Below are positions 23,561 through 36,893 of a DNA stretch of 39,261 nt, piece after piece; within the stretch, counting starts at the first letter, position 1, and every line of letters begins with the position of its first letter. The position numbers and the translations under genes are program-made. The stretch is from an uncultured Anaerolineae bacterium (GTDB taxonomy: Bacteria; Chloroflexota; Anaerolineae; JACIWP01): the NCBI GenBank assembly GCA_938049385.1, contig CALIBQ010000053.1, positions 1 to 39,261 of the forward strand, written 5' to 3'. Below the pieces are notes generated by a model, which searched no databases, was not told the DNA's origin, and saw only the letters and a list, made by a program, of their open reading frames with translations.

Positions 23561-25045
23561 TCACGAGCGCGAGGGGGAGCTAACCTCTGCTAGATGCAGT
23601 ATGCGCCGCCGCCGGCCGATCAGCATCAGTAGGGCGACCAGAAGGGCAAGTCCGCCGGCAATGTACAACAACAACCGCCAGGCCGGCGCGCCGTCCACCC
23701 AAGTCCCATACACCACGCCGGCCAGGGTGCTGAACAGCGCCACAAACCCCACATATACCCAGGCCTTTGTCTTGCCAATGATGCTGGCCGTGATGAGGAT
23801 GCTCTGCAGGCTCAGCTCTGGGTCCGCCATCAGATAGGCCAGGAGCGGGCCGCGATGCATCCCCAACTGCAGGAACATGTTGGCAATGGGCACCTCCACC
23901 AAGGTGGGGAAGTACATGAACACGCCGAAGACGACGCCGGCCGCGTTGCCCAGCAGGGTGTTCCGGCCGGCCAGCGCCTGGATCCATTCCGGCCGGATGA
24001 GCGGACGCAGGACACCTACGGCAAACACACCCACCACCAGCAGAGGGAAGATCTGCTTGACAAAGCGCCAGGTCTCCCACAGCCATTCCTGAATGTCGAA
24101 TGGGTCGAAATAGCGGCGCGCCACCCATGCCATAGCTCCGATCAGCAGGACTACGGCGAACATCTTGCCGGTGAAGAAGATATCCAGTCCGCCGGCATGC
24201 GGCACCATCCTCACCGCCGCCGTCAGCAGGGTCAGAACGATCAACCCCAGGGTAACCCAGGTCCACGTGTTGAACCCCTCATCCACATGGGTCAGGCCGC
24301 GCCAGGCGCTGACACCAATGAGAATGAGCAGGCCAATGAGGATGGCACCCTGGGCCGTGACACCCTCTTCGCCGCGGGATGGGTCAAAGGGCACCAGACG
24401 GTACAGGAGGTCCTGGAAGCGGTCCATGCCCTGAAGGGGCAGTGTAACCTGGGCGTAGCTGTTGGTCAACAGCCCGATTTGCAGGGTGCCGGCAATGAGC
24501 AGGAGGAGCAAGAGGCCCAGGAAGGCCCAGTTCTGTGCCGGCACACGGGCCTCGCCCGCCGCAAATGTATCCCCCTCTTCTGCCGCATGGCGTGCATCGT
24601 CCCGGAAGAAAATCAATGCCATCAGCAGGCCAATGCCGATGCCGAAGGCGATGGACAGCACCAGGCGCGCGATGGCGATATCCATGCCGATGGCCACGCC
24701 GGTGTAGCTCAGCGCCAGGATGTTGATGGCCGGCCCGACGAACAGGAAGGTGATGGCCGGCCCCAACCCGGCGCCCTTTTTATAGATGCCGGCGAAGAGG
24801 GGCAGGATGGTGCAGGAGCAGACTGCCAGCACAAACCCACCCAGTGCGGCGGCAGGATACGAGATGTATTTGGGGGCCGAGCGCCCCAGGAAACGGGTGA
24901 TGGCCGGCTGAGGGATCAGCGCGGCCAGCGCGCCGGCCACGAAAAAGGCCGGCAGGAGGCAGAGCAGTACGTGTGCCGCCAGGTACGCGGCCAGATTCCC
25001 CAGGCCGCTCTGCAGTAATCCCACGATGAATGTGCCCACGTTCAT
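23561..25045 (-). CDS. DUF318/ArsP-like permease
   Basis: 494 aa membrane protein. The N-terminal half has the hallmark of this permease family, GGFVLAVCSCTILPLFAGIYKKGAGLGPA, with the CSC cysteines and a partner motif FLFVGPAINILAL. The C-terminal half repeats it with VVFGVFMYFPTLVEVPIANMFLQLGM and ADPELSLQSILITASIIGKTKAW. About ten to twelve helices are visible, with a hydrophilic loop near residue 155. Characterised relatives (ArsP) export trivalent organoarsenicals; many others are uncharacterised. AAGGAGGA lies upstream of ATG 25045 but about 14 bases away. It follows the radical SAM gene by 33 bases in the same direction, with an ArsR regulator further upstream, so metal- or arsenic-linked expression is plausible. 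Confidence 0.85.
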   Translation of the reverse strand: MNVGTFIVGLLQSGLGNLAAYLAAHVLLCLLPAFFVAGALAALIPQPAITRFLGRSAPKYISYPAAALGGFVLAVCSCTILPLFAGIYKKGAGLGPAITFLFVGPAINILALSYTGVAIGMDIAIARLVLSIAFGIGIGLLMALIFFRDDARHAAEEGDTFAAGEARVPAQNWAFLGLLLLLLIAGTLQIGLLTNSYAQVTLPLQGMDRFQDLLYRLVPFDPSRGEEGVTAQGAILIGLLILIGVSAWRGLTHVDEGFNTWTWVTLGLIVLTLLTAAVRMVPHAGGLDIFFTGKMFAVVLLIGAMAWVARRYFDPFDIQEWLWETWRFVKQIFPLLVVGVFAVGVLRPLIRPEWIQALAGRNTLLGNAAGVVFGVFMYFPTLVEVPIANMFLQLGMHRGPLLAYLMADPELSLQSILITASIIGKTKAWVYVGFVALFSTLAGVVYGTWVDGAPAWRLLLYIAGGLALLVALLMLIGRRRRILHLAEVSSPSRS

Positions 25046-25078
25046 TGTTCGGAAAGATGTCCTCCTTGCTGGAAAGTA

Positions 25079-26182
25079 TCAGGCACAGCGGATAATACCG
25101 CGCGCCCATAGGCAGTCCCCGCAAACAGGGAAGGTATTGCCAAAGCAGTCCTCTTCGTTCTTTTCCGCCAGGTCACAGCCGCAGTCCACGCAGGGTGGAA
25201 AGTCAAACTGCAGGACGCGCTCGCGGAAAGCCACATACGCCGGCGTTTCCCAGATCTCGCGGAGAGACTGTTCGGGAAGCCGCCCGATCTCCCAGCGCCG
25301 GATGGACTTGCGCCGGCCCATCACATAGCAGGTATACGAATGCATCAGCGGCGGACAAGGGCTGACCCCACCGTGCCAGCCCACCGCCAGCGCGCCGGCC
25401 TGTACAAACGGGCAGAAGCTGTTGCGCGACCCCAGGTCCAAGTCCAAGTAGCTGATGTTAGCTTGTGTGCGAAAGACTTGCACCAGCGGCTCCAGCGTCT
25501 CCTCCGTCAGGTCCATTTTGGGCAGTATCCAGGTCGGCGTCCACGGCGACCCCTTCCCCTGGAACGAGGTGGCGCGCAGGTTGTACAGCGTCTCCGATAC
25601 CATGTCCTCGGTATACGGCAGGACATTGGTGATGAGAATCAGGGAAGCGCCGATGTACTTGGCCAGCGAGTGGAGATGCGGCAGTTCGCGGATGTTACTG
25701 CGCATGGCCACGAACTCAATGCCGATGGTCAGGGGCGGCAGGGGGCTTGGCTCCGAAAGCTCGTAAAAGGCGCGCACATTCTCCACGACCTTCGAGAGAG
25801 AGCCGCCGCGCCGCACATGGCTGAAGGTCTCCGCAGTGGTGCCGTCAATGGAGACCACGAGCTGGTCCAAGCCCAGTTCCAGCAAGGCGCCGGCCATCTC
25901 CCTATTTAGCAGGAGCGCGTTGGTGGTGACCTCCACCCGTAGGTGATGCTCCTTCGCCAGACGCACCATGTCCACGAAGCGGGGGTGCAGGAGCGGCTCC
26001 CCAATGCCGGCGAAAGCGATCGTCTGCGCGATGGGAAAGGTGGAAAGTTCCTCTATCAGCCCTTGATAGGTCTCCCACTCCATGAATCCAACGGTTTCGT
26101 CCCACACATTGCGCATGCATGTCCGGCAGTTCAAGTTACAGCCGTTCGTAGGCTCGATATACACCTTACGCAGTGCATCCAT
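25079..26182 (-). CDS. Radical SAM/SPASM protein resembling tungsten-oxidoreductase maturases
   Basis: 367 aa. The radical SAM cluster motif is C15-x3-C19-x2-C22 in TNGCNLNCRTC, followed by FAGIGEPLLHPRF (GGEP-like motif) and VTTNALLL. The C-terminal SPASM-like region has cysteines in SFCPFVQ, SPCPPLMHS, PPCVDCGCDLAEKNEEDC and FPVCGDCLW...IRC. The strings EPTNGCNLNCR, GIEFVAMRSN and NEEDCFGN...CLWARGIIRC match my recollection of the radical SAM maturases encoded beside tungsten-dependent aldehyde oxidoreductases. No such oxidoreductase gene is in the window. It probably installs a modification on a peptide or enzyme; the target is unknown. A 59-codon gene ends 13 bases upstream. Confidence 0.85.
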   Translation of the reverse strand: MDALRKVYIEPTNGCNLNCRTCMRNVWDETVGFMEWETYQGLIEELSTFPIAQTIAFAGIGEPLLHPRFVDMVRLAKEHHLRVEVTTNALLLNREMAGALLELGLDQLVVSIDGTTAETFSHVRRGGSLSKVVENVRAFYELSEPSPLPPLTIGIEFVAMRSNIRELPHLHSLAKYIGASLILITNVLPYTEDMVSETLYNLRATSFQGKGSPWTPTWILPKMDLTEETLEPLVQVFRTQANISYLDLDLGSRNSFCPFVQAGALAVGWHGGVSPCPPLMHSYTCYVMGRRKSIRRWEIGRLPEQSLREIWETPAYVAFRERVLQFDFPPCVDCGCDLAEKNEEDCFGNTFPVCGDCLWARGIIRCA

Positions 26183-26195
26183 GTGTCGCCGATGT

Positions 26196-26375
26196 TTACT
26201 CCCATTCCAACTGCATGCGAAAGCGTCCGTACTCCGACACGTAGAAGATCAGCTCCTCCTGTCCAGGAGCGATCTTCTCCCACACCTCCGGCGCTAGATA
26301 GGCCATGGCGAAGGGCTGATCATCCTCCCACAGTTCCACCGGCATGAAGTCCGCCGGCGCCTCCGGCTTGCCCAT
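26196..26375 (-). CDS. Small acidic protein upstream of the radical SAM gene
   Basis: 59 aa from ATG 26375; an in-frame TTG precedes it. It contains no cysteine, is rich in Glu, Trp and aromatic residues (FMPVELWEDDQP, PEVWEKIAPGQEEL), and ends YGRFRMQLEWE. It stops 13 bases before the radical SAM start, so the two are almost certainly coexpressed. It could be a chaperone, a small subunit or a substrate of the radical SAM enzyme; a leader-core precursor layout is not obvious. The 246 bases between it and arsR hold only short overlapping frames (31 and 52 codons) without clear coding character. Confidence 0.55.
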   Translation of the reverse strand: MGKPEAPADFMPVELWEDDQPFAMAYLAPEVWEKIAPGQEELIFYVSEYGRFRMQLEWE

Positions 26376-26621
26376 CAAACCTGATGGGCCCCGAAAGATG
26401 GTTCATCAGCCCAGACAGACCATGCCCCAGCGGATAGTCAGCGCTTTCTCCCGCTGTCTGATTTGATTGTTCAGCCATCGAGAGATGATCCTGCCGCGCA
26501 CGTTCCTGTGTTCCATATCCCCTGCTTCCATACAAGGGTATGCAAAGAGCCGCTAGCAAATTTCATTTCCGGCGCCGCGTAAGTGACGTTGACTGCCGCC
26601 GCGCCGGCCTGCCAGCGCCCG

Positions 26622-26987
26622 CTACAGCTCCATTCGATAGTAGGCCACACAGACTGGACAGGTGCAGTCATCCAAGGGAGGTTCTGGCACAGCGGGCAGT
26701 TCCACGCGGGTGCCCAGTTCTAGCAATAGTTCCTGGCCCAGGCGGATCAGTTCCTGGACCTTGGGAGAGGCCAGCCGATAAAACACCGACTGACCCTCTC
26801 GCCGGTCCTCCACCAAGCCGGCCTCCCGCAGGACGCCCAACTGTTGGGAAATATAGGGTTGGGGCCGGCGCAGAATGGCGATCAGATGACAAACACACGC
26901 CTCCCCGTGTCCCAGGATATGCAGGATCTGAAGCCGTACCGGGTGGGCCAGCGCCTTATATAACTGCGCCATTTGGGCTTCCATCAT
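26622..26987 (-). CDS. ArsR/SmtB-family metalloregulatory repressor
   Basis: 121 aa winged-helix protein starting MMEAQMAQLYKALAHPVRLQIL, the standard ArsR N-terminus, with GGAAGGTG just upstream. Helix 3 carries GEACVCHLIAIL, equivalent to the ELCVCDL metal-binding signature (Cys-x-Cys) of ArsR/SmtB/CadC sensors. The recognition helix is QPYISQQLGVLREAGLV and the wing is REGQSVFYRL. The C-terminus adds DDCTCPVC, three further cysteines that could complete a thiolate site for As(III), Cd or Pb. A promoter with an AT-rich dyad over its -10 lies upstream, fitting autorepression. Likely controls the small gene, radical SAM and permease genes that follow. Confidence 0.92.
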   Translation of the reverse strand: MMEAQMAQLYKALAHPVRLQILHILGHGEACVCHLIAILRRPQPYISQQLGVLREAGLVEDRREGQSVFYRLASPKVQELIRLGQELLLELGTRVELPAVPEPPLDDCTCPVCVAYYRMEL

Positions 26988-27035
26988 CACCTTCCGTAAC
27001 TCGCTTTCCGTGACCAGTCCTATGCAAAAAACGAC

Positions 27036-27070
27036 ATATCTAATATACTCCGAGATAGGGATATTGTCAA
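27036..27070 (-). promoter_or_regulatory. arsR promoter with overlapping dyad operator
   Basis: On the minus strand TTGACA (27070-27065) and TATATT (27047-27042) are 17 bases apart. The dyad ATAT-CTA-ATAT (27036-27046) covers the -10 and the first transcribed bases, an AT-rich arrangement typical of ArsR/SmtB operators. Confidence 0.7.
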
Positions 27071-27128
27071 AAATGCTGTACAGCTATCGCCAAGCGGGAT
27101 ACGCGGCATGCGGGTGGTCCATGCGATA

Positions 27129-29255
27129 TCATAAGGGCCGGGGAGTGCCGGCCGGCAGATTCTCCCCCTCCGCATCCCAAGAAATACTATCCAGCAGACA
27201 GCTCCGTAAGGAAGAAGCCGCGGTACTGGATGCGAAGCAGGTGATGCGATCGCCGGCCTGAATGACGGTATCGCCGTGCGGGATGACTACCTGACCGCTG
27301 CGCCGGCGTATGGAGACCAGGACTGCATCCGCCGGCAGTACACGCGAAAGTTCACGGACAGTGCGACCTACACAGCCGGCATCTGGTGTGACGGAGATTT
27401 CGACGAATTCGGTGCCGTCCACCCGCCGCAGGGAGAGCTGTGCGGCACGGTGCTGAAGCTCCGCCCGCCGGGTCAGGGCGAGGTTATACGCACGCAGGAT
27501 ATCGTCGCGGCGCACGATGCCCAGAAGCTTGCGCGGGTCTTCGCGTGAGACCACCGGGAGCCGGCCCACGCCCAGCCGGCCCAACTTCTCCAGTGCCGAG
27601 GCCATGGTCTCATCCGGGAAGACCACATGCGGCCGGCGTGTGGCGATCTCCGCCGCCGGCGTTTCCAGCGGCAGGCCGCGCTCCAGCGCGCGCTGGAGGT
27701 CCTGCAGGGTGACCATGCCGAACAGATGACCATCCGTGTCCAGCACGGGGAAGCCGTGATGGCGGGTGCGGTTGAACTCTTCCAAAAGCCCGCTGAGGGT
27801 CATGTCGGCCGGCACGGTGTCCGGGTTCGGCGTCATGGCCTCCTGCACCAGGATGCCCTGCATGATATCCACATCGCGTCCCTGGGAGATGCGGATGCCG
27901 CGGCGCGCCAGCGGGATGGTGTTGATGGTTTCTCCCCGCAGTATGGCCCGGCTGGCGAACCAGGCAATGACGACGGCAAACATCAGCGGCAGGATGATAT
28001 GGTAATCCCCGGTCATCTCAAAGAGGAGCAGGATGGCGGTAATCGGTGTGCCGATGATGCCGGCGAACGCAGCCGCCATACCCACCAGGGCATAGGCGCC
28101 GGCCGGAGCGACAATCCCTGGGAAAAGCTGTGCCGCGATATGGCCGTATGCTCCACCCAGCATGGCGCCGAAAAAGAGAGATGGCGCGAAGATGCCGCCC
28201 GAACCGCCGGAGCCCAGCGTCAGGGAGGTGGCGATGATTTTCAGGAAGATGAGCGCCAACATGACCCATGGGACGCCGGCGCCGGCCAGGGCCAGTTCGA
28301 TGGTCGAATAGCTGTTGCCGAAAACGTGGGGAATGCCTTCGTACCGCAGACCAGGGATCAGGCCGTAGACGATGGCGAAAATGCCCAGCAGTGCGCCGCC
28401 GACGGCCGGCTTGAACCATGCCGGCACCCGCTTCCATTCCTCGAAGCGGTCCTCCGCCCAGACCAGGGTGCGCACAAACAGCGCCGAAACCGGCGCCGCC
28501 AGCACACCGAGCAGGGCATACAGTCCAAACTCCCAGGGGGAGCGCAGGGTATAGGCTGGAATAATGAAGGTCGGCGAACCCCCGAACACCGCCCGGCTGA
28601 TGGCGGCAGAGGTGACGGAAGAGATGACGATCAGGCTGAAGTTGGTAGCGCTGAAATCGCCCAGGATGCCTTCCAGGGAGAAGATGACGCCGGCGATGGG
28701 AGCGTTGAAGACGCCGGCGAGGCCGGCCGCCGCACCGCAGGCCAGCAGGGTGCGGGTACCCTCCGGGCCCAGCCGCAGTAACTGCCCGAAGGATGAGCCG
28801 ATGGCGGAGCCCATCTGTACGACCGGCCCCTCCCAGCCAGCGGAGCCGCCGGTGCCGATGGTGATGGCAGAGGCGGCGCCTTTCACCAGAGCGACGATGG
28901 GGCGGATGCGGCCGCCGCGCAGGGCCACCGCCTCGATGACTGCCGGCACGCCGTGCCCCTTGGCCTCCGGGGCGAAAAAGCGGATCAGCAGGCCGGTGAG
29001 CAGGCCGCCGGCCGCAGGGATCAGGACGAGGTACAGCGGCCCGAAGCCTGCCAGCCGGCCGGCCAGCGGGCCGAAGGACACGCGTTCGATGAGAGTGATG
29101 AGCCGGCGGAACAGGACAGCGGCGATGCCGGTACACATGCCCACGGCTAGGGCAATGAGCAGTCGGGAAAAGGTCTCGGACGACGTCAGGGACCTGACCC
29201 AAGATCGGATGCGCTGGATAGACTGGAACAATCTCTGCCCCACTGCCGCAGTCAT
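27129..29255 (-). CDS. ClC-type chloride channel/transporter with CBS pair and RCK C-terminal domain
   Basis: 708 aa from ATG 29255 (GAGGCAGGCGA upstream). Membrane part about residues 30-430, with the anion-pathway motifs KGHGVPAV (GxGxP; His where CLC-ec1 has Ser), GSAGWEGP (gating glutamate in GxEGP) and GSGGSGGIFAPSLF. Two CBS repeats follow: VQEAMTPNPDTVPADMTL to FGMVTLQDL, then RPHVVFPDETMASAL to LGIVRRDDI. These bind adenine nucleotides in relatives. The last about 85 residues (FVEISVTPDAGCVGRTVREL to VIQAGDRITCF) form a TrkA/RCK-C domain, an unusual regulatory addition for ClC proteins. Its own promoter lies at 29304-29331. Confidence 0.93.
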   Translation of the reverse strand: MTAAVGQRLFQSIQRIRSWVRSLTSSETFSRLLIALAVGMCTGIAAVLFRRLITLIERVSFGPLAGRLAGFGPLYLVLIPAAGGLLTGLLIRFFAPEAKGHGVPAVIEAVALRGGRIRPIVALVKGAASAITIGTGGSAGWEGPVVQMGSAIGSSFGQLLRLGPEGTRTLLACGAAAGLAGVFNAPIAGVIFSLEGILGDFSATNFSLIVISSVTSAAISRAVFGGSPTFIIPAYTLRSPWEFGLYALLGVLAAPVSALFVRTLVWAEDRFEEWKRVPAWFKPAVGGALLGIFAIVYGLIPGLRYEGIPHVFGNSYSTIELALAGAGVPWVMLALIFLKIIATSLTLGSGGSGGIFAPSLFFGAMLGGAYGHIAAQLFPGIVAPAGAYALVGMAAAFAGIIGTPITAILLLFEMTGDYHIILPLMFAVVIAWFASRAILRGETINTIPLARRGIRISQGRDVDIMQGILVQEAMTPNPDTVPADMTLSGLLEEFNRTRHHGFPVLDTDGHLFGMVTLQDLQRALERGLPLETPAAEIATRRPHVVFPDETMASALEKLGRLGVGRLPVVSREDPRKLLGIVRRDDILRAYNLALTRRAELQHRAAQLSLRRVDGTEFVEISVTPDAGCVGRTVRELSRVLPADAVLVSIRRRSGQVVIPHGDTVIQAGDRITCFASSTAASSLRSCLLDSISWDAEGENLPAGTPRPL

Positions 29256-30017: not shown

Positions 30018-30614
30018 ATGAATCATATCCAAGGGTTTTCCCCCGCGGCGGCATCGGCACTGGAGAAGATCGCCGAAGAGGTGTCTGTCTGCATGCAGTG
30101 CGGGACGTGCGCCGGCTCCTGTCCCACCGCGCCAGCCATGGACTACACCCCGCGCGCCCTCATGCGCCTGCTCCAGGCCGGCCTGTTCGACGAGGCACTC
30201 CACAGCCGCACCATCTGGATGTGCACTACCTGCTACTCCTGCACCGTGCGCTGTCCGCGCGATATCCATGTCACGGATATCCTGGGCAAACTGCGCGGCA
30301 TCGCCATCGCCGAAGGCTATGCCGAAACCGCCGGCATGACTTTCAACAAAGCCTTCCTGGGCATCGTGCGGCGCTACGGCCGCATGTTCGAACCGGAACT
30401 GCTCATCCGCTATCACCTGCGGCAGGAGCCCCTGGGCATCGTGGGAGCCGCTCCCATCGGGTTGGCCCTGCTCCAGAAGGGCAAAATCTCGCCCCTGCCG
30501 GAACGCCTGCCGGCAGAAGGACTGGCCCAAATCCGCCGCATATTCGAGGCCGTGGAAGCGCGGCGCAAGGCCGCGCCGGCGCGGCCTCATCCCATGCATG
30601 AGGTGTCCCGATGA
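30018..30614 (+). CDS. hdrC: Heterodisulfide reductase-like subunit C
   Basis: 198 aa Fe-S protein. ATG 30018 is preceded by GGGAGG. Two [4Fe-4S] motifs are present, CMQCGTCAGSCPTA and CTTCYSCTVRCPRDI, spaced as in HdrC. The C-terminal half lacks cysteines and is mostly helical. HdrC passes electrons between the flavin subunit HdrA and the catalytic subunit HdrB. Its stop overlaps hdrB (ATGA). First gene of the six-gene hdr-mvhD-fdh operon. Confidence 0.93.
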   Translation: MNHIQGFSPAAASALEKIAEEVSVCMQCGTCAGSCPTAPAMDYTPRALMRLLQAGLFDEALHSRTIWMCTTCYSCTVRCPRDIHVTDILGKLRGIAIAEGYAETAGMTFNKAFLGIVRRYGRMFEPELLIRYHLRQEPLGIVGAAPIGLALLQKGKISPLPERLPAEGLAQIRRIFEAVEARRKAAPARPHPMHEVSR

Positions 30615-31474
30615 ATCCACTGCGCTACGCCTATTATCCGGGTTGCAGTTTGACCACCAGCGCCAAGGAATATGACCGCTCGGTGCGCGCCGTGTTCGAC
30701 GCGCTGGGCGTAGAACTGCTGGAGATCGAGGGGTGGAACTGCTGTGGCGCCACGCCGGCCAGCCAGAACGAACTGCTCATGTACGCCCTTTCGGGCCGCA
30801 ACCTGGCCTGGGCGGAAGCCCGTGGGCTGGATGTGGTAGCGCCCTGCAGTGAATGCTTCAAAAACCTGAACAAGACCGCACAGGCCGTGCGCGCCGACCC
30901 AGCCGTGCGGGCCGAGGTGAACGCCGTCCTGGGTGATGTCAGCCTGACCGGCAAGGTGCGCGTCAAGCACCCGCTGGAGGTGCTGGTGCGCGATGTGGGG
31001 CTGGAGGAGATCCGCCGGCGCGTCACCCGCCCGCTGGCCGGCCTCAAGATCGCGCCCTATTACGGCTGTCTCATCACCCGGCCGCGCAACGAGTTCGACA
31101 GCCCGGAGAACCCTACCGCCATGGACGACCTGATGGCGGCCCTGGGCGCCGAAGTGGTGGACTACTTCCCGTACAAGACCCGCTGTTGCGGCGGCGCCCT
31201 GCTGTTGAGCAATAAGCGCATCGCCCTGGGCATGACGCGCGACCTGGTGATCAAGGCCCACCAGCGCGGCGCCAACAGCATGGCCCTGGCGTGCCCCATG
31301 TGCGACATGATGCTGGATCCGTACCAGGGGCCGGCCCTGCGCGCCGGCGAAAAGCCCCTGCCAACCTTCTACTTCACCCAACTGATAGGGCTTGCCCTGG
31401 GGATAGACCCTGACCAACTAGGCTTTGCCGATCGCGTGGTATCCCCGCGCGAAGTACTGGCGGCCCTGAGCTAG
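30611..31474 (+). CDS. hdrB: Heterodisulfide reductase-like subunit B
   Basis: 287 aa with both cysteine-rich CCG domains that bind the noncubane [4Fe-4S] clusters at the disulfide-cleaving site. The first has GWNCCGATPAS then PCSECFKN; the second has YYGCLITRP, RCCGGALLL and CPMCDMM. ATG 30611 overlaps the hdrC stop. In methanogens HdrB reduces CoM-S-S-CoB. Bacteria of this type lack those cofactors, so the physiological disulfide or other acceptor is unknown. Confidence 0.93.
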   Translation: MNPLRYAYYPGCSLTTSAKEYDRSVRAVFDALGVELLEIEGWNCCGATPASQNELLMYALSGRNLAWAEARGLDVVAPCSECFKNLNKTAQAVRADPAVRAEVNAVLGDVSLTGKVRVKHPLEVLVRDVGLEEIRRRVTRPLAGLKIAPYYGCLITRPRNEFDSPENPTAMDDLMAALGAEVVDYFPYKTRCCGGALLLSNKRIALGMTRDLVIKAHQRGANSMALACPMCDMMLDPYQGPALRAGEKPLPTFYFTQLIGLALGIDPDQLGFADRVVSPREVLAALS

Positions 31475-31484
31475 AGGAGGGACC

Positions 31485-33479
31485 ATGACGCCAACCCACG
31501 AAAGCGAAAAACCCCGCATCGGCGTGTTCGTTTGCTACTGCGGCAGTAACATCGCCGCCACCGTGGATGTGGAGAAAGTGGCCGAATACGCGGCCACCCT
31601 GCCCAATGTGGTGTTCACCCAGACCAACAAGTACACCTGCTCGGACCCTGGGCAGGAGGAGATCCGCAAGGCCATCATTGAGCATAAGCTCAACCGCGTG
31701 GTCATCGCCGCCTGCTCGCCGCGCATGCACGAGGTCACCTGGCGCCGGCTCCTGCAGGGCACCGGCTTGAACCCCTATCTGCTCCAGGTGGCCAACATTC
31801 GCGAGCATGTCTCCTGGGTGCACCAGGACCGCGGCGAGGCCACACAAAAGGCCAAAGAGCTGGTGGCGGCGGCGGTGGAGCGGGTGCCTCTGCATGAGCC
31901 GCTGGAGCCGCGCCAGGTCAAGATCGCACCCAGCACCTTGATTGTGGGCGGCGGCATCGCCGGCATCCAAGCCGCGCTGGACATCGCCAACGCCGGCTAT
32001 CACGTCTACCTGGTGGAGAAACAGCCTTCCATCGGCGGCAACATGGCCAAGCTGGATAAGACCTTCCCCACGCTGGACTGTGCCATGTGCATCCTGGCAC
32101 CGAAGATGGTGGACGCCGGCCGGCATGAGAACATTACCCTTTTCTCCTACTCCGAGGTGGAGTCGGTCGAGGGGCATGTCGGCCAGTTCCGCGTGCGCAT
32201 CAAGCGCAAGCCGCGCTACGTCAAAGAGGATGTATGCACCGGCTGTGGTCTATGCACCCAGGCCTGCGTGCTCAAAGACCGCATCCTCAGCGAGTTTGAA
32301 ATGGGCATGGGCAAGCGTGGGGCCGCCTATATCCCCTTCCCCCAGGCGGTGCCGCTGAAGGCCGTCATTGACCCCGAACACTGTCTCCTGCTGACCCGCG
32401 GCAAGTGCTCCATGAAATGCATTAAGGCCTGCGGCCCGGGCGCCATTGACTTCAAACAGCAAGAGGAGTTCATCGAGATCGAGGTCGGCACCATCATCTT
32501 AGCGACCGGTTTCGAGCTGTACGATATGTCCGCACTGCCCCAGTACGGCTACGGCCGCTACGACAACGTGGTGGATGGCCTCCAGTTCGAGCGGTTGTGC
32601 AACGCTTCCGGCCCAACGGAAGGGCGCATCGTCACCAAAGATGGGCGCGTGCCAGAGGCCATCGCCTTCCTGCACTGCATCGGGAGCCGGGATGAGAACA
32701 CCAACCCCTACTGCTCTCAGCTCTGCTGTATGCATACTCTGAAGCTGGCGCACCTGGCGCGCGAGAAGACCCCGGCGAGGATCTATGAATTCTACATCGA
32801 CCTCCGCGCCGGCGGCAAAGGCTATGAGGAATTCTACAAACGCGTACAGCATGAGGGCATTCATTTCATCCGCGGCAAAGGCTCTGAAGTGGTGCAGGAT
32901 GGGGACAAGCTCATCGTGCGCGCCGAGGACACCCTGCTTGGCAAGGTAGTGGAGGTGCCGGTGGATATGGTGGTGCTGGCCCTGGGCATGGTGCCGCCGA
33001 AGGACATTGAGAACATTGCGCGTATTTTCAACATTAACCGCAGTCGCGATGGTTTCTTCATGGAGGCGCATCCGAAACTGCGGCCGGCCGAGACCAACGT
33101 CGAGGGAGTCTTCCTGGCCGGCGCCTGCCAAGGCCCGAAAGATATCCCCGCCACTGTGGCCCATGCCAGCGCCGCCGCCGCCCAGGCGCTGTCGCTCATG
33201 AGCCGCGGCCAGGCGACCATCGAACCCATCATCGCTGAGGTCATCGCCGAGAAATGCTCTGCCTGCGGCGAATGCATCGTCGCCTGCCCCTTCAAAGCCA
33301 TCCGCATGGATGAAGAAGCGCGCCACGCCTATGTCGTCAGCGCTATGTGCAAGGGATGCGGCACCTGCGCGGCCGCCTGCCCCAGCAAAGCGATCAAGAT
33401 GGCGCACTTCACAGATCAGCAGTTGATCGCGGAGATCGAGGGTATCCTGGGGAGGATGAGTGAATATGAGCTTGCCTGA
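31485..33479 (+). CDS. hdrA: Heterodisulfide reductase-like subunit A (flavin, electron-bifurcating)
   Basis: 664 aa, the normal HdrA size; GAGGAGGG precedes ATG 31485. The N-terminal domain has RIGVFVCYCGSNI. The FAD-binding GGGIAGIQAALDIA follows (GGGIAG at residues 155-160), then NMAKLDKTFPTLDCAMC with the HdrA-specific cysteines. Ferredoxin-type motifs are CTGCGLCTQAC and a second set in RGKCSMKCIKACGPGAI. Two more lie at the C-terminus: CSACGECIVACPFKAI and CKGCGTCAAACPSKAI. HdrA carries the FAD that splits electron pairs between a low-potential ferredoxin and the HdrB acceptor. No UGA/Sec codon is used, unlike some methanogen HdrA. Confidence 0.95.
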   Translation: MTPTHESEKPRIGVFVCYCGSNIAATVDVEKVAEYAATLPNVVFTQTNKYTCSDPGQEEIRKAIIEHKLNRVVIAACSPRMHEVTWRRLLQGTGLNPYLLQVANIREHVSWVHQDRGEATQKAKELVAAAVERVPLHEPLEPRQVKIAPSTLIVGGGIAGIQAALDIANAGYHVYLVEKQPSIGGNMAKLDKTFPTLDCAMCILAPKMVDAGRHENITLFSYSEVESVEGHVGQFRVRIKRKPRYVKEDVCTGCGLCTQACVLKDRILSEFEMGMGKRGAAYIPFPQAVPLKAVIDPEHCLLLTRGKCSMKCIKACGPGAIDFKQQEEFIEIEVGTIILATGFELYDMSALPQYGYGRYDNVVDGLQFERLCNASGPTEGRIVTKDGRVPEAIAFLHCIGSRDENTNPYCSQLCCMHTLKLAHLAREKTPARIYEFYIDLRAGGKGYEEFYKRVQHEGIHFIRGKGSEVVQDGDKLIVRAEDTLLGKVVEVPVDMVVLALGMVPPKDIENIARIFNINRSRDGFFMEAHPKLRPAETNVEGVFLAGACQGPKDIPATVAHASAAAAQALSLMSRGQATIEPIIAEVIAEKCSACGECIVACPFKAIRMDEEARHAYVVSAMCKGCGTCAAACPSKAIKMAHFTDQQLIAEIEGILGRMSEYELA

Positions 33480-33912
33480 GTCCAACGTCCAACAGCCGCC
33501 TTATGAGCCGAAGATCATCGGCTTCCTGTGCAACTGGTGCAGTTACGCCGGCGCCGACCTGGCCGGCACCTCGCGCCTGTCCTATCCCCCCAACATCCGC
33601 ATCGTGCGGGTACAGTGCTCCGGCCGGGTCTCACCGGAGCTGGTGCTGAAAGCCTTCCACGAGGGGGCGGACGGCGTCATCGTGCTGGGCTGTCATATCG
33701 GCGACTGCCATTACATTGACGGCAACCACCGCACTTCCAAGCGCATCCCTATGCTTCGTCAGCTCCTGGCGTACGCCGGCATCGAACCCGATCGCCTGCG
33801 CCTGGAGTGGGTCTCCGCCGCCGAGGGCGAGCGCTTCGCCACCATCGTCAAGGAATTCACCGAAACGGTCCGTGCGCTGGGCCCCATCAAGCAGGTCATG
33901 GTCACGGGATAG
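33466..33912 (+). CDS. mvhD: MvhD-like iron-sulfur subunit
   Basis: 148 aa from ATG 33466, with GGAGGA upstream, overlapping the hdrA stop; GTG 33460 is an alternative. Family features are FLCNWCSYAGADLAGTSRL near the N-terminus, RVQCSGRVSP, and GCHIGDCHYIDGN. These cysteines bind a [2Fe-2S] cluster. MvhD links HdrA to an electron-donating hydrogenase or formate dehydrogenase. Here the adjacent genes are formate-dehydrogenase-like, implying formate as donor (or product). Confidence 0.93.
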   Translation: MSLPESNVQQPPYEPKIIGFLCNWCSYAGADLAGTSRLSYPPNIRIVRVQCSGRVSPELVLKAFHEGADGVIVLGCHIGDCHYIDGNHRTSKRIPMLRQLLAYAGIEPDRLRLEWVSAAEGERFATIVKEFTETVRALGPIKQVMVTG

Positions 33913-33921
33913 GGGGAAGCC

Positions 33922-34737
33922 ATGGACGAAGAACACATGCTCGAAGCAGTACGCCAGAAAATTCTGGAGATCATGCCCCAGGTGGACGGCGTCATCGCTC
34001 TGCGGCGCGTGGGCAAAGGGACGGCTCCCCATCTCTTCCTGCCAGGGGACGACCTCTCGGAGCTGGCCCTGTTCCCACAGTTCCCCCTGCCGACACCGGT
34101 GCGCATCATCCAGGCCAAATATCCGGACAAACGCTTCGCAGTGGTGGTGCGCGGATGCGACGAGCGGCAGTTGGTGGAGATGGCCAAACGCCAACAGATT
34201 TTCCTGGACAAACTCACCATGATCGGCGTAGCCTGTACCAAGGAGCAGGCGGAATACTGCCGCTGTGAGATGCCGTTCCCCAAACAGGTGGATGTGGGCG
34301 AGACAGTCGAGGGCATCCCCCAGACCTTCCTGGACGAGTTCCTGGCCAAGCCGCGCGAGGAGCGGCTGGCCTTCTGGAAACATGCCTTTGCCAAATGCAT
34401 CAAATGCTACGGGTGCCGCAACATTTGCCCGGAATGCTTCTGCAAGGAATGCGTGCTGGAGGATAACCTCTGGGTGACGTCGGGCACCGTGCCGCCGCCC
34501 TTCCCCATGTTCCATCTCATTCGCGCCATGCACACCGTGGGGAAGTGCGTGGCCTGCGGGGAGTGCGAGCGCACCTGCCCGGCGGATATTCCGCTGACCA
34601 TCCTTTATAAACTGCTGAAGCGCGATGTGGAGACAGTGTTCAACTACTACGCCGGCGCGAACCCGGAAGAGCCGCCGCTCATGGACAGCACCATCTTCCT
34701 GGCGGACATGGACATGCTTCATCCGCCCCGCCGGTGA
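33922..34737 (+). CDS. Fe-S electron-transfer subunit (FdhB/FrhB-related) of the formate dehydrogenase
   Basis: 271 aa; GGGGGAAGCC precedes ATG 33922. The N-terminal half (about residues 1-130) has an FrhB-like look: VVVRGCDERQLVEMAKRQQI and CTKEQAEYCRCEMP. The C-terminal half has two cysteine groups, CIKCYGCRNICPECFCKECV and CVACGECERTCPADIPL, for [4Fe-4S] clusters. It lies between mvhD and fdhA, so it probably conducts electrons from the FdhA active site to MvhD/HdrA. A flavin or F420 site is not clearly complete, and it may also contact a soluble carrier. Confidence 0.82.
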   Translation: MDEEHMLEAVRQKILEIMPQVDGVIALRRVGKGTAPHLFLPGDDLSELALFPQFPLPTPVRIIQAKYPDKRFAVVVRGCDERQLVEMAKRQQIFLDKLTMIGVACTKEQAEYCRCEMPFPKQVDVGETVEGIPQTFLDEFLAKPREERLAFWKHAFAKCIKCYGCRNICPECFCKECVLEDNLWVTSGTVPPPFPMFHLIRAMHTVGKCVACGECERTCPADIPLTILYKLLKRDVETVFNYYAGANPEEPPLMDSTIFLADMDMLHPPRR

Positions 34738-34784
34738 TACCAGATGGGTGACAAGACCCATGCTTGTGAGGAGGAATTCGCTCC

Positions 34785-36893
34785 ATGGAATACCGTAACG
34801 TACCTACTATTTGTACATACTGCGGCGCAGGTTGTGGACTGCTGTTAGAGGTGCTGGACGGCCAGGTTGTAGGAACATACCCGGACTATTCGCATCCGGT
34901 GAGCAACGGTCATCTGTGCATCAAGGGATGGAACGCCGGCGCCTTCATACATCACCCTGACCGCCTGAAAAAGCCGCTTTTCCGCAAAGGGAATGACTTC
35001 GTCGAGGTAAGCTGGGACGAGGCGTTGGAGCGGGTGGCCGGCGAGCTGAAGCGCATCCGGGACCAGTACGGCCCCGATGCCATCGGCCTGTTTGGCTCCG
35101 CCAAGGCCACTAACGAGGCCAACTACCTGATGCAGAAGCTGGCGCGAGCGGTGATTGGCACCAATAACGTTGACCACTGCGCGCGCCTTTGTCACAGCCC
35201 CTCGGTCGCCGGCCTGGCCATGACCTTCGGCTCCGGCGCCATGACCAACAGCATTCCAGAGCTGGAAAATTCCCGCTGTATCCTGGTCACCGGCTCCAAC
35301 ACCACCGAGGGTCATCCCATCATCGGTGCCTACATCATGCGCGCCAAGGAGCGCGGCGCTACCCTGATCGTCGTGGACCCGCGCGACATCCAGCTCGCCC
35401 GCTTCGCTGATTTCCATCTGCGACAGAAGCCGGGCACCGATGTGGCCTGGATCAACGGCATGATTCATGTCATCCTCAGCGAGGGACTGGAGAATAGGGA
35501 ATTCATCGCCGCACGCACCGAGAACTTTGAAGCCTTGAAGGAAGTTGTGAAAGATTATCCACCGGAACGGGTGGAACAGATCACCGGCATCCCCGCAGAT
35601 CAGCTCATCGCCGCGGCGCGTGCCTATGCCCGGGCGGAGAGCGCCGCCATCGTGTACGCCATGGGCATCACCCAGCATACCACTGGCACCGACAACGTCA
35701 TGAGCCTGGCCAACCTGGCGATGGTGACGGGTCAGATCGGCCGGCCCAGCACCGGCATTAACCCCCTGCGCGGCCAGAACAACGTCCAGGGCGCCTGCGA
35801 CGTCGGCGCTCTGCCGAACGTCTATCCTGGCTACCAGTCCGTGACCGATGAGAAAGCGCGCCAGAAGTTCCTGGAGGCGTGGGGCGCCGTGCCGCCGGCG
35901 CGCGCCGGCCTGACCGTCACGGAAATGGTGGACCTGGCCGGCGTTGGCGCCGTGCGCGCTCTTTACATCATGGGAGAGAACCCTCTGCTCTCTGACCCGA
36001 ACATCCAGCATGCCCGCGAGGCGCTGGAAAGGGTGGAATTTTTGGTGGTGCAGGACATTTTCCTGAGCGAGACCGCCCAGTTCGCCCATGTGGTCCTGCC
36101 GGCAGCCTCCTTTGCCGAGACCAGCGGGACTTTCACCGCCACCGACCGCCGGGTTCAGCTCGTGCGGCAAGCCATCCCGCCCATCGGCGAAAGCCGCGAG
36201 GACTGGCAGATCATCTGCGAGATCGCAAGGCGCATCGGCACGCCGGCCGGCCCCTACGGCGGGTTCGATTATGCCAGCACGGCGGAAATCATGGACGAGA
36301 TCGCCGCGCTGACGCCCATTTACGGCGGCATCAGCCATCGCCGGCTGGAGGAGCTGGGCTTCCTGCAGTGGCCCTGCCGCACGCCGGACGACCCCGGCAC
36401 CCCCATCCTGCACACGGAGCAGTTTACCCGCGGCTTGGGCAGGTTCCAGCCGATACACTACCGCGATCCGGCGGAGCTGACCGATGAGGAGTATCCCTTC
36501 ATCCTCACCACTGGGCGCGTCATGTTCCACTGGCATACTGGCACCATGACGCGGCGTTCGCCGAAACTCCACAAAGAGGTGCCGGAAGGCTACGTCGAGA
36601 TCAACCCCTTCGATGCGGAGCGCCTGCAGATCGGCAAGTCGGAGCGCATCCGGCTGGTCAGCCGGCGCGGCGCGGTCGAAACCAAGGCCTGGATCACCCG
36701 CCGCGTTGCTCCGGGCGTGGTCTTCATGCCCTTCCACTTCGCTGAAGCCGCCGCCAACGTCCTTACCAACGCGGCGCTGGACCCGGTGGCCAAGATTCCA
36801 GAGTACAAGGTATGTGCGGTGCGGGTAGAGAAAGTGGTTGCGCCGGAGCGTGTGGAAAAGGTCGTGGTAACAACCACCACCGGCGCGCGGTGA
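34785..36893 (+). CDS. fdhA: Formate dehydrogenase-type molybdopterin oxidoreductase
   Basis: 702 aa; GAGGAGGAA precedes ATG 34785. The N-terminal [4Fe-4S] motif is C10-x2-C13-x3-C17...C45. The active-site segment NNVDHCARLCHSPSVAGLA has cysteine (C136) at the metal ligand position where E. coli FdhF has Sec, with the catalytic His next to it. Pterin-guanine-dinucleotide contacts follow in typical order (VTGSNTTEGHPI, VDPRDIQLARFAD, QNNVQGACDVGALPN). The C-terminal domain ends with GRVMFHWHTGTMTRRSP. It lacks the N-terminal ferredoxin domain of longer FdhA proteins, so electrons leave through the subunit at 33922. Oxidises formate or, in reverse, reduces CO2 with Mo or W. Confidence 0.93.
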   Translation: MEYRNVPTICTYCGAGCGLLLEVLDGQVVGTYPDYSHPVSNGHLCIKGWNAGAFIHHPDRLKKPLFRKGNDFVEVSWDEALERVAGELKRIRDQYGPDAIGLFGSAKATNEANYLMQKLARAVIGTNNVDHCARLCHSPSVAGLAMTFGSGAMTNSIPELENSRCILVTGSNTTEGHPIIGAYIMRAKERGATLIVVDPRDIQLARFADFHLRQKPGTDVAWINGMIHVILSEGLENREFIAARTENFEALKEVVKDYPPERVEQITGIPADQLIAAARAYARAESAAIVYAMGITQHTTGTDNVMSLANLAMVTGQIGRPSTGINPLRGQNNVQGACDVGALPNVYPGYQSVTDEKARQKFLEAWGAVPPARAGLTVTEMVDLAGVGAVRALYIMGENPLLSDPNIQHAREALERVEFLVVQDIFLSETAQFAHVVLPAASFAETSGTFTATDRRVQLVRQAIPPIGESREDWQIICEIARRIGTPAGPYGGFDYASTAEIMDEIAALTPIYGGISHRRLEELGFLQWPCRTPDDPGTPILHTEQFTRGLGRFQPIHYRDPAELTDEEYPFILTTGRVMFHWHTGTMTRRSPKLHKEVPEGYVEINPFDAERLQIGKSERIRLVSRRGAVETKAWITRRVAPGVVFMPFHFAEAAANVLTNAALDPVAKIPEYKVCAVRVEKVVAPERVEKVVVTTTTGAR

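Follow-up and report, generated by a model that had tools for sequence, protein, structure and literature searches.

The question raised by this locus is what is encoded by an open reading frame of 59 codons, lying between an arsR gene and a radical SAM gene in the window, which is the whole stretch of 39,261 nucleotides that was analysed (contig CALIBQ010000053.1 of an uncultured Anaerolineae bacterium, assembly GCA_938049385.1). The reading frame belongs to a block of four co-directional genes on the minus strand, namely arsR, the small gene, a radical SAM/SPASM gene and the gene for an ArsP-type permease. The ArsR/SmtB metalloregulator (26622–26990) scores 96.4 bits with model NF033788, above the cut-off of 55, and has the CVC motif and the C-terminal DDCTCPVC that had been noticed in a preliminary description of the locus. 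The permease (23561–25045), beyond the range quoted in that description, was also correctly recognized there; it contains a CSC motif and belongs to the ArsP_1 family (PF03773; 229.3 bits, cut-off 32.3), and it is a putative exporter of organoarsenicals. With the small gene started at GTG 26501 the intergenic gaps are about 120, 13 and 33 nt, and the first is 105 nt if the upstream ATG 26516 is the start. A promoter-like sequence, TTGACA-17-TATATT, matching 11 of 12 consensus positions, is located upstream of arsR (27042–27070, minus strand), and a similar sequence is present in the genus mate. No clear ArsR operator was found at the locus, and an Rfam scan of positions 25000–27200 gave no match near the gathering score. 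The block is likely a metal-responsive operon.

The small reading frame had been taken for a complete gene encoding a 59-residue protein, and this did not hold. The ATG-initiated frame (26196–26375, minus strand) continues upstream across two successive stop codons, TGA TGA (26403–26408), to GTG 26501 or to ATG 26516, with a further upstream ATG at 26531 as another alternative start, and sequence conservation relative to the genus mate starts close to GTG 26501. The 59-codon frame is thus the 3' part of a gene of about 101 codons that is interrupted by TGA TGA; from GTG 26501 it covers 26196–26501, encodes 101 amino acids and ends with TAA. The two stop codons are apparently decoded as two neighbouring selenocysteines (UU), and the identity of the product as a twin-selenocysteine protein is strongly supported by the comparisons that follow.

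When the 59-codon product was searched against 298 genomes of the class, matches were found in 13, the window's own genome among them, and once the matching frames were extended upstream, every one of them showed TGA TGA in the same alignment column. The model NF041239 finds 11 of the 298, all with two TGAs and none above its cut-off of 40; an alignment search of 400 genomes drawn from the phylum gave two matches, one of them new, and scanning named genomes, among them Thermosediminibacter, Fervidicola, Thermovorax and other Bacillota, added 18 loci, each with TGA TGA. The final set of 27 homologous loci, from Chloroflexota and Bacillota, consists of the window, the genus mate, the 18 named-genome loci and seven more; loci L086 and L087 are mutually close, as are L093–L095. 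The TGA pair is kept in 27/27, and a profile scan of all loci gathered up to that point detected no Cys-Cys version. No plasmid homologues were found, 18 pattern matches in viral contigs yielded no confirmed member, and the best sequence relative in the PDB had an E-value of only 1.1.

An in-frame ATG after the TGA pair might suggest that the 59 codons are an ordinary separate gene and that the pair is a true stop, and this reading is already contradicted. Pooled over 12 pairs of sequences, pN/pS in the frame is 0.22 upstream and 0.19 downstream of the TGA pair, compared with about 1.29–2.19 in the other frames; since the in-frame values are low on both sides, selection holds one frame across both TGA codons. 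This purifying selection, the conserved residues directly after UU, the SECIS-like hairpin and the single domain predicted across the pair all argue against a separate gene, which we consider very improbable. Coupling of a stop to a start at TGATGA was also rejected; the ATG inside it belongs to another frame.

A SECIS-like hairpin, GCCCAUCA-GGUU-UGAUGGGC (26370–26389, minus strand), follows the second UGA, with its apical loop 24 and 21 nt past the two UGAs and a minimum free energy (MFE) of -12.6 kcal/mol. The rules for bacterial SECIS elements, as set out in the review PMC13188914, are a loop of 3–9 nt, a stem of 4–16, a G within loop positions 1–2, a spacing of 16–37 nt and an MFE of -7.5 or lower. 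They are satisfied at 24 of the 25 loci examined, the sole exception being L098, which at -7.2 kcal/mol is slightly short of the energy limit. The hairpin pair 27–32 is A-U in 12 of the 25 loci and C-G in 11, the pair 25–34 is U-A, U-G or G-C, and 92.5% of the alignment cells pair. None of 500 shuffles and none of the slides reaches the observed percentage paired or covariation score, while the number of different pair types is no higher than in the shuffles. At the protein level this covariation links a synonymous change in a Ser codon to an exchange of Leu and Arg, a pattern that is expected from RNA constraint.

The window's genome encodes a tRNA-Sec (69.2 bits, also called by ARAGORN) and SelB (372.9 bits). 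SelB is found at E < 1e-90 in 16 of the 18 twin-selenocysteine carriers of the class draw, an enrichment that is uninformative because 239 of the 298 class genomes pass the SelB cut-off. The other two carriers, G012 (locus L081; 9e-55) and G049 (L096; 2e-35), carry the UU gene in assemblies where SelB does not reach a full score, which may be due either to incomplete assembly or to loss.

The AlphaFold2 model of the read-through protein of the window is one confident domain (pLDDT 92.2), the corresponding model for L086 has a pLDDT of 93.9, and in both UU sits in a turn between two strands. In Foldseek the top ranks for both models are the A-type carriers IscA and SufA together with HI1723 and DsrR, with a best E-value of 0.013 at a probability of 0.96, every match being above E 0.001; the VIA Z values of the IscA-like entries are 5.2–4.1 and the next unrelated entry has 2.6. 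By sequence, none of 18 UU members tested has a PF01521 or other Pfam match, PF01521 matches nothing in the window's genome either, and the UU family compared directly with four HesB proteins in hhalign gave no match. Stepwise, the UU family aligns with NF041239 (96.5%, E 8.7e-10) and NF041239 with HesB (84.9%), and by this route the first selenocysteine falls on the conserved GGC cysteine of IscA. A relationship to the fold of the A-type carriers (IscA/SufA/HesB, PF01521) is moderately supported. Unlike those carriers, the UU protein lacks the C-terminal CGC ligand pair, and it has no conserved cysteine besides UU.

NF041239, the 'CC/Se motif family (seleno)protein' of Moorella type, is likewise a family of small proteins, and its selenocysteine aligns with the first of UU. 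Its members carry a single selenocysteine (GGGUAGC in L107–L109, GGGUC in L110), whereas the UU family has two that are adjacent. Wherever they were scored, UU proteins fall below the cut-off of 40, at 14.8–34.8 bits (14.8 for the window protein, 34.8 and 27.8 for two relatives). All four Bacillota genomes searched contain a true NF041239 member (67–94 bits) and a separate UU protein (26–33 bits), and because both coexist in these genomes UU is regarded as a separate, distant sister family. With its adjacent Sec-Cys pair, the GGGUC of L110 is intermediate between GGGUAGC and UU.

The radical SAM protein (25079–26182, minus strand) had been described as resembling the maturases of tungsten oxidoreductases. 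TIGR04317 (W_rSAM_matur) is indeed the closest NCBIfam model, but with 312.4 bits the protein stays under the cut-off of 380 and is a sister of that family. At E < 1e-40 the window gene is the only one of its kind in its own genome, and in the genus mate the window type occurs alongside the canonical TIGR04317 type; true TIGR04317 members are found near the UU gene at L086 (412 bits) and L082 (391 bits). The statement that no tungsten oxidoreductase is present is correct for the window's block but only locally, as the genome has 14 AOR-family genes elsewhere (AFOR_N matches) and an AOR gene is located near UU in 6 of the 27 loci.

Counted on the same strand within 5 kb, over flanks that vary in length and with some short contigs, the neighbours of the UU gene are a PF04060 Fe-S protein in 16 of the 27 loci, ArsR in 13, the radical SAM protein in 11, ArsP in 10, a Trx/CcdA-like protein in 7, AOR in 6, and a hydrogenase-like protein and VKOR in 4 each. 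The regulator or permease beside the small gene is thus a recurrent feature, for which the background in the window's own genome is 8 ArsR-type matches in 3.37 Mb. There is no single partner common to all 27 loci. In four Bacillota loci the gene order is AOR, UU and hydrogenase-like protein, and an [FeFe]-hydrogenase-like Fe-S protein is encoded directly downstream of UU in 4/27. The PF04060 neighbour has about 178 residues, with the Fe-S domain at its C-terminus and an N-terminal part without known family, and is found at L084, L081, L086 and 13 other loci.

The suggestion that the small protein is a partner of the radical SAM enzyme is borne out by these counts and by the distribution over genomes, this radical SAM type being present in 12 of 15 carriers of the UU gene but in only 60 of the 184 genomes that lack it (p 4e-4 by Fisher's test, kinship ignored). 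It is encoded within 1.5 kb of UU in 9 of the 27 loci, and in 16 it was not seen within 10 kb on the available sequence. Radical SAM orthologues that always sit beside an oxidoreductase, with ars genes that vary independently, had been named as speaking against a common pathway, and this pattern is not what is seen; among 28 UU-less relatives, with flanks of up to about 7 kb, AOR is in reach of 9, ArsR of 5, the PF04060 protein of 5 and ArsP of 1. At L116, L130, L134 and L136 a radical SAM relative is accompanied by the PF04060 protein and ArsR, so that the same neighbourhood also exists in a form without a UU gene.

Vicinal selenols are strong ligands of soft metals and metalloids, and it is because of the UU pair, the thiol-type ArsR, the ArsP-type permease and the A-type-carrier-like scaffold that a carrier or chaperone role is held to be the most likely. 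We consider it fairly probable that the UU selenoprotein carries a soft metal or metalloid, or a chalcogen or Fe-S unit, a reading in which we infer the selenocysteine insertion, the ligand, the direction of transfer and the control by ArsR. One SECIS hairpin would serve both UGAs and give an invariant Sec-Sec pair, and the thiol-type ArsR probably controls the gene together with the maturase and the exporter. The vicinal diselenol would most likely bind the soft metal(loid) or the chalcogen/Fe-S unit, and the carrier may hand it on to the maturase and to tungsten AOR-type enzymes, with ArsR and ArsP keeping the free ion low; maturation of AOR-type enzymes would be the shared downstream process.

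Two other roles have to be weighed against that of a carrier. The Sec-Sec pair might be a redox centre, a vicinal diselenide/diselenol that reduces a partner such as an arsenic species, the radical SAM enzyme or AOR, with the Trx-, CcdA- or VKOR-type neighbours as electron path. The presence of Trx/CcdA-like proteins in 7 and of VKOR in 4 of the 27 loci, the [FeFe]-hydrogenase-like protein just 3' of UU in four, and the view, given in PMC13188914, that known selenoproteins are mostly redox proteins all point in this direction, but the predicted fold resembles metal and Fe-S carriers rather than thioredoxins and the thiol-redox neighbours are rarer than ArsR and ArsP, so that we regard this role as unlikely. 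Still less probable is that the small selenoprotein is a substrate of the radical SAM/SPASM enzyme, modified or crosslinked at selenocysteine or at a nearby residue. SPASM enzymes often modify small proteins encoded adjacent to them, and the nine close pairs and the gap of 13 nt in the window fit with this; UU is nevertheless kept in all loci, including the 16 without such a radical SAM gene within 10 kb, and the models predict a folded domain and not a leader-core peptide.

The Sao and Tso operons (Haft 2023, 2025) are also among the closest known systems; in them, according to PMC13188914, selenoproteins occur with metal-type regulators and transporters, as they do here. The SaoE and TsoR models score 69 against 325 and 42 against 115 with the window proteins, far below their cut-offs, and no UU motif is listed for any Sao or Tso family in the review's table. 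Nor does the motif appear in that table as a whole, which in this 2026 review comprises 119 selenoprotein families. The literature searched, which includes parts of PMC13188914, PMC12013277, PMC2398784, PMC5029168 and PMC10778597, contains no report of an adjacent selenocysteine pair in a bacterial protein, though it may have been noticed earlier in RefSeq annotation or in Haft 2023 and Haft/Tolstoy 2025. More tentatively, we suggest an unlisted selenoprotein family in which consecutive UGAs are both read as selenocysteine under one SECIS, so that an A-type-carrier scaffold bears an obligate diselenol and would tie ArsR-controlled metal(loid) handling to the radical SAM maturation of tungsten oxidoreductases.

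The adjacent UGA pair offers a test case for SelB and one SECIS acting on two successive codons, and the fact that none of the 27 loci has reverted to Cys-Cys points to a chemistry that needs both selenols. The locus might also serve as a genetic handle on tungsten AOR-type enzymes and the handling of soft metal(loid)s in anaerobes. For annotators it is useful to know that standard gene calling truncates the family to a short reading frame, as at the window. Elsewhere in the window, positions 30018–36893 are occupied by successive genes of Hdr-like, MvhD-like and formate-dehydrogenase-like type, named by eye from the open reading frames; the FdhA-like protein (34785–36893) shows the motif CHSP, and thus apparently has cysteine instead of selenocysteine despite the selenocysteine machinery of the genome.
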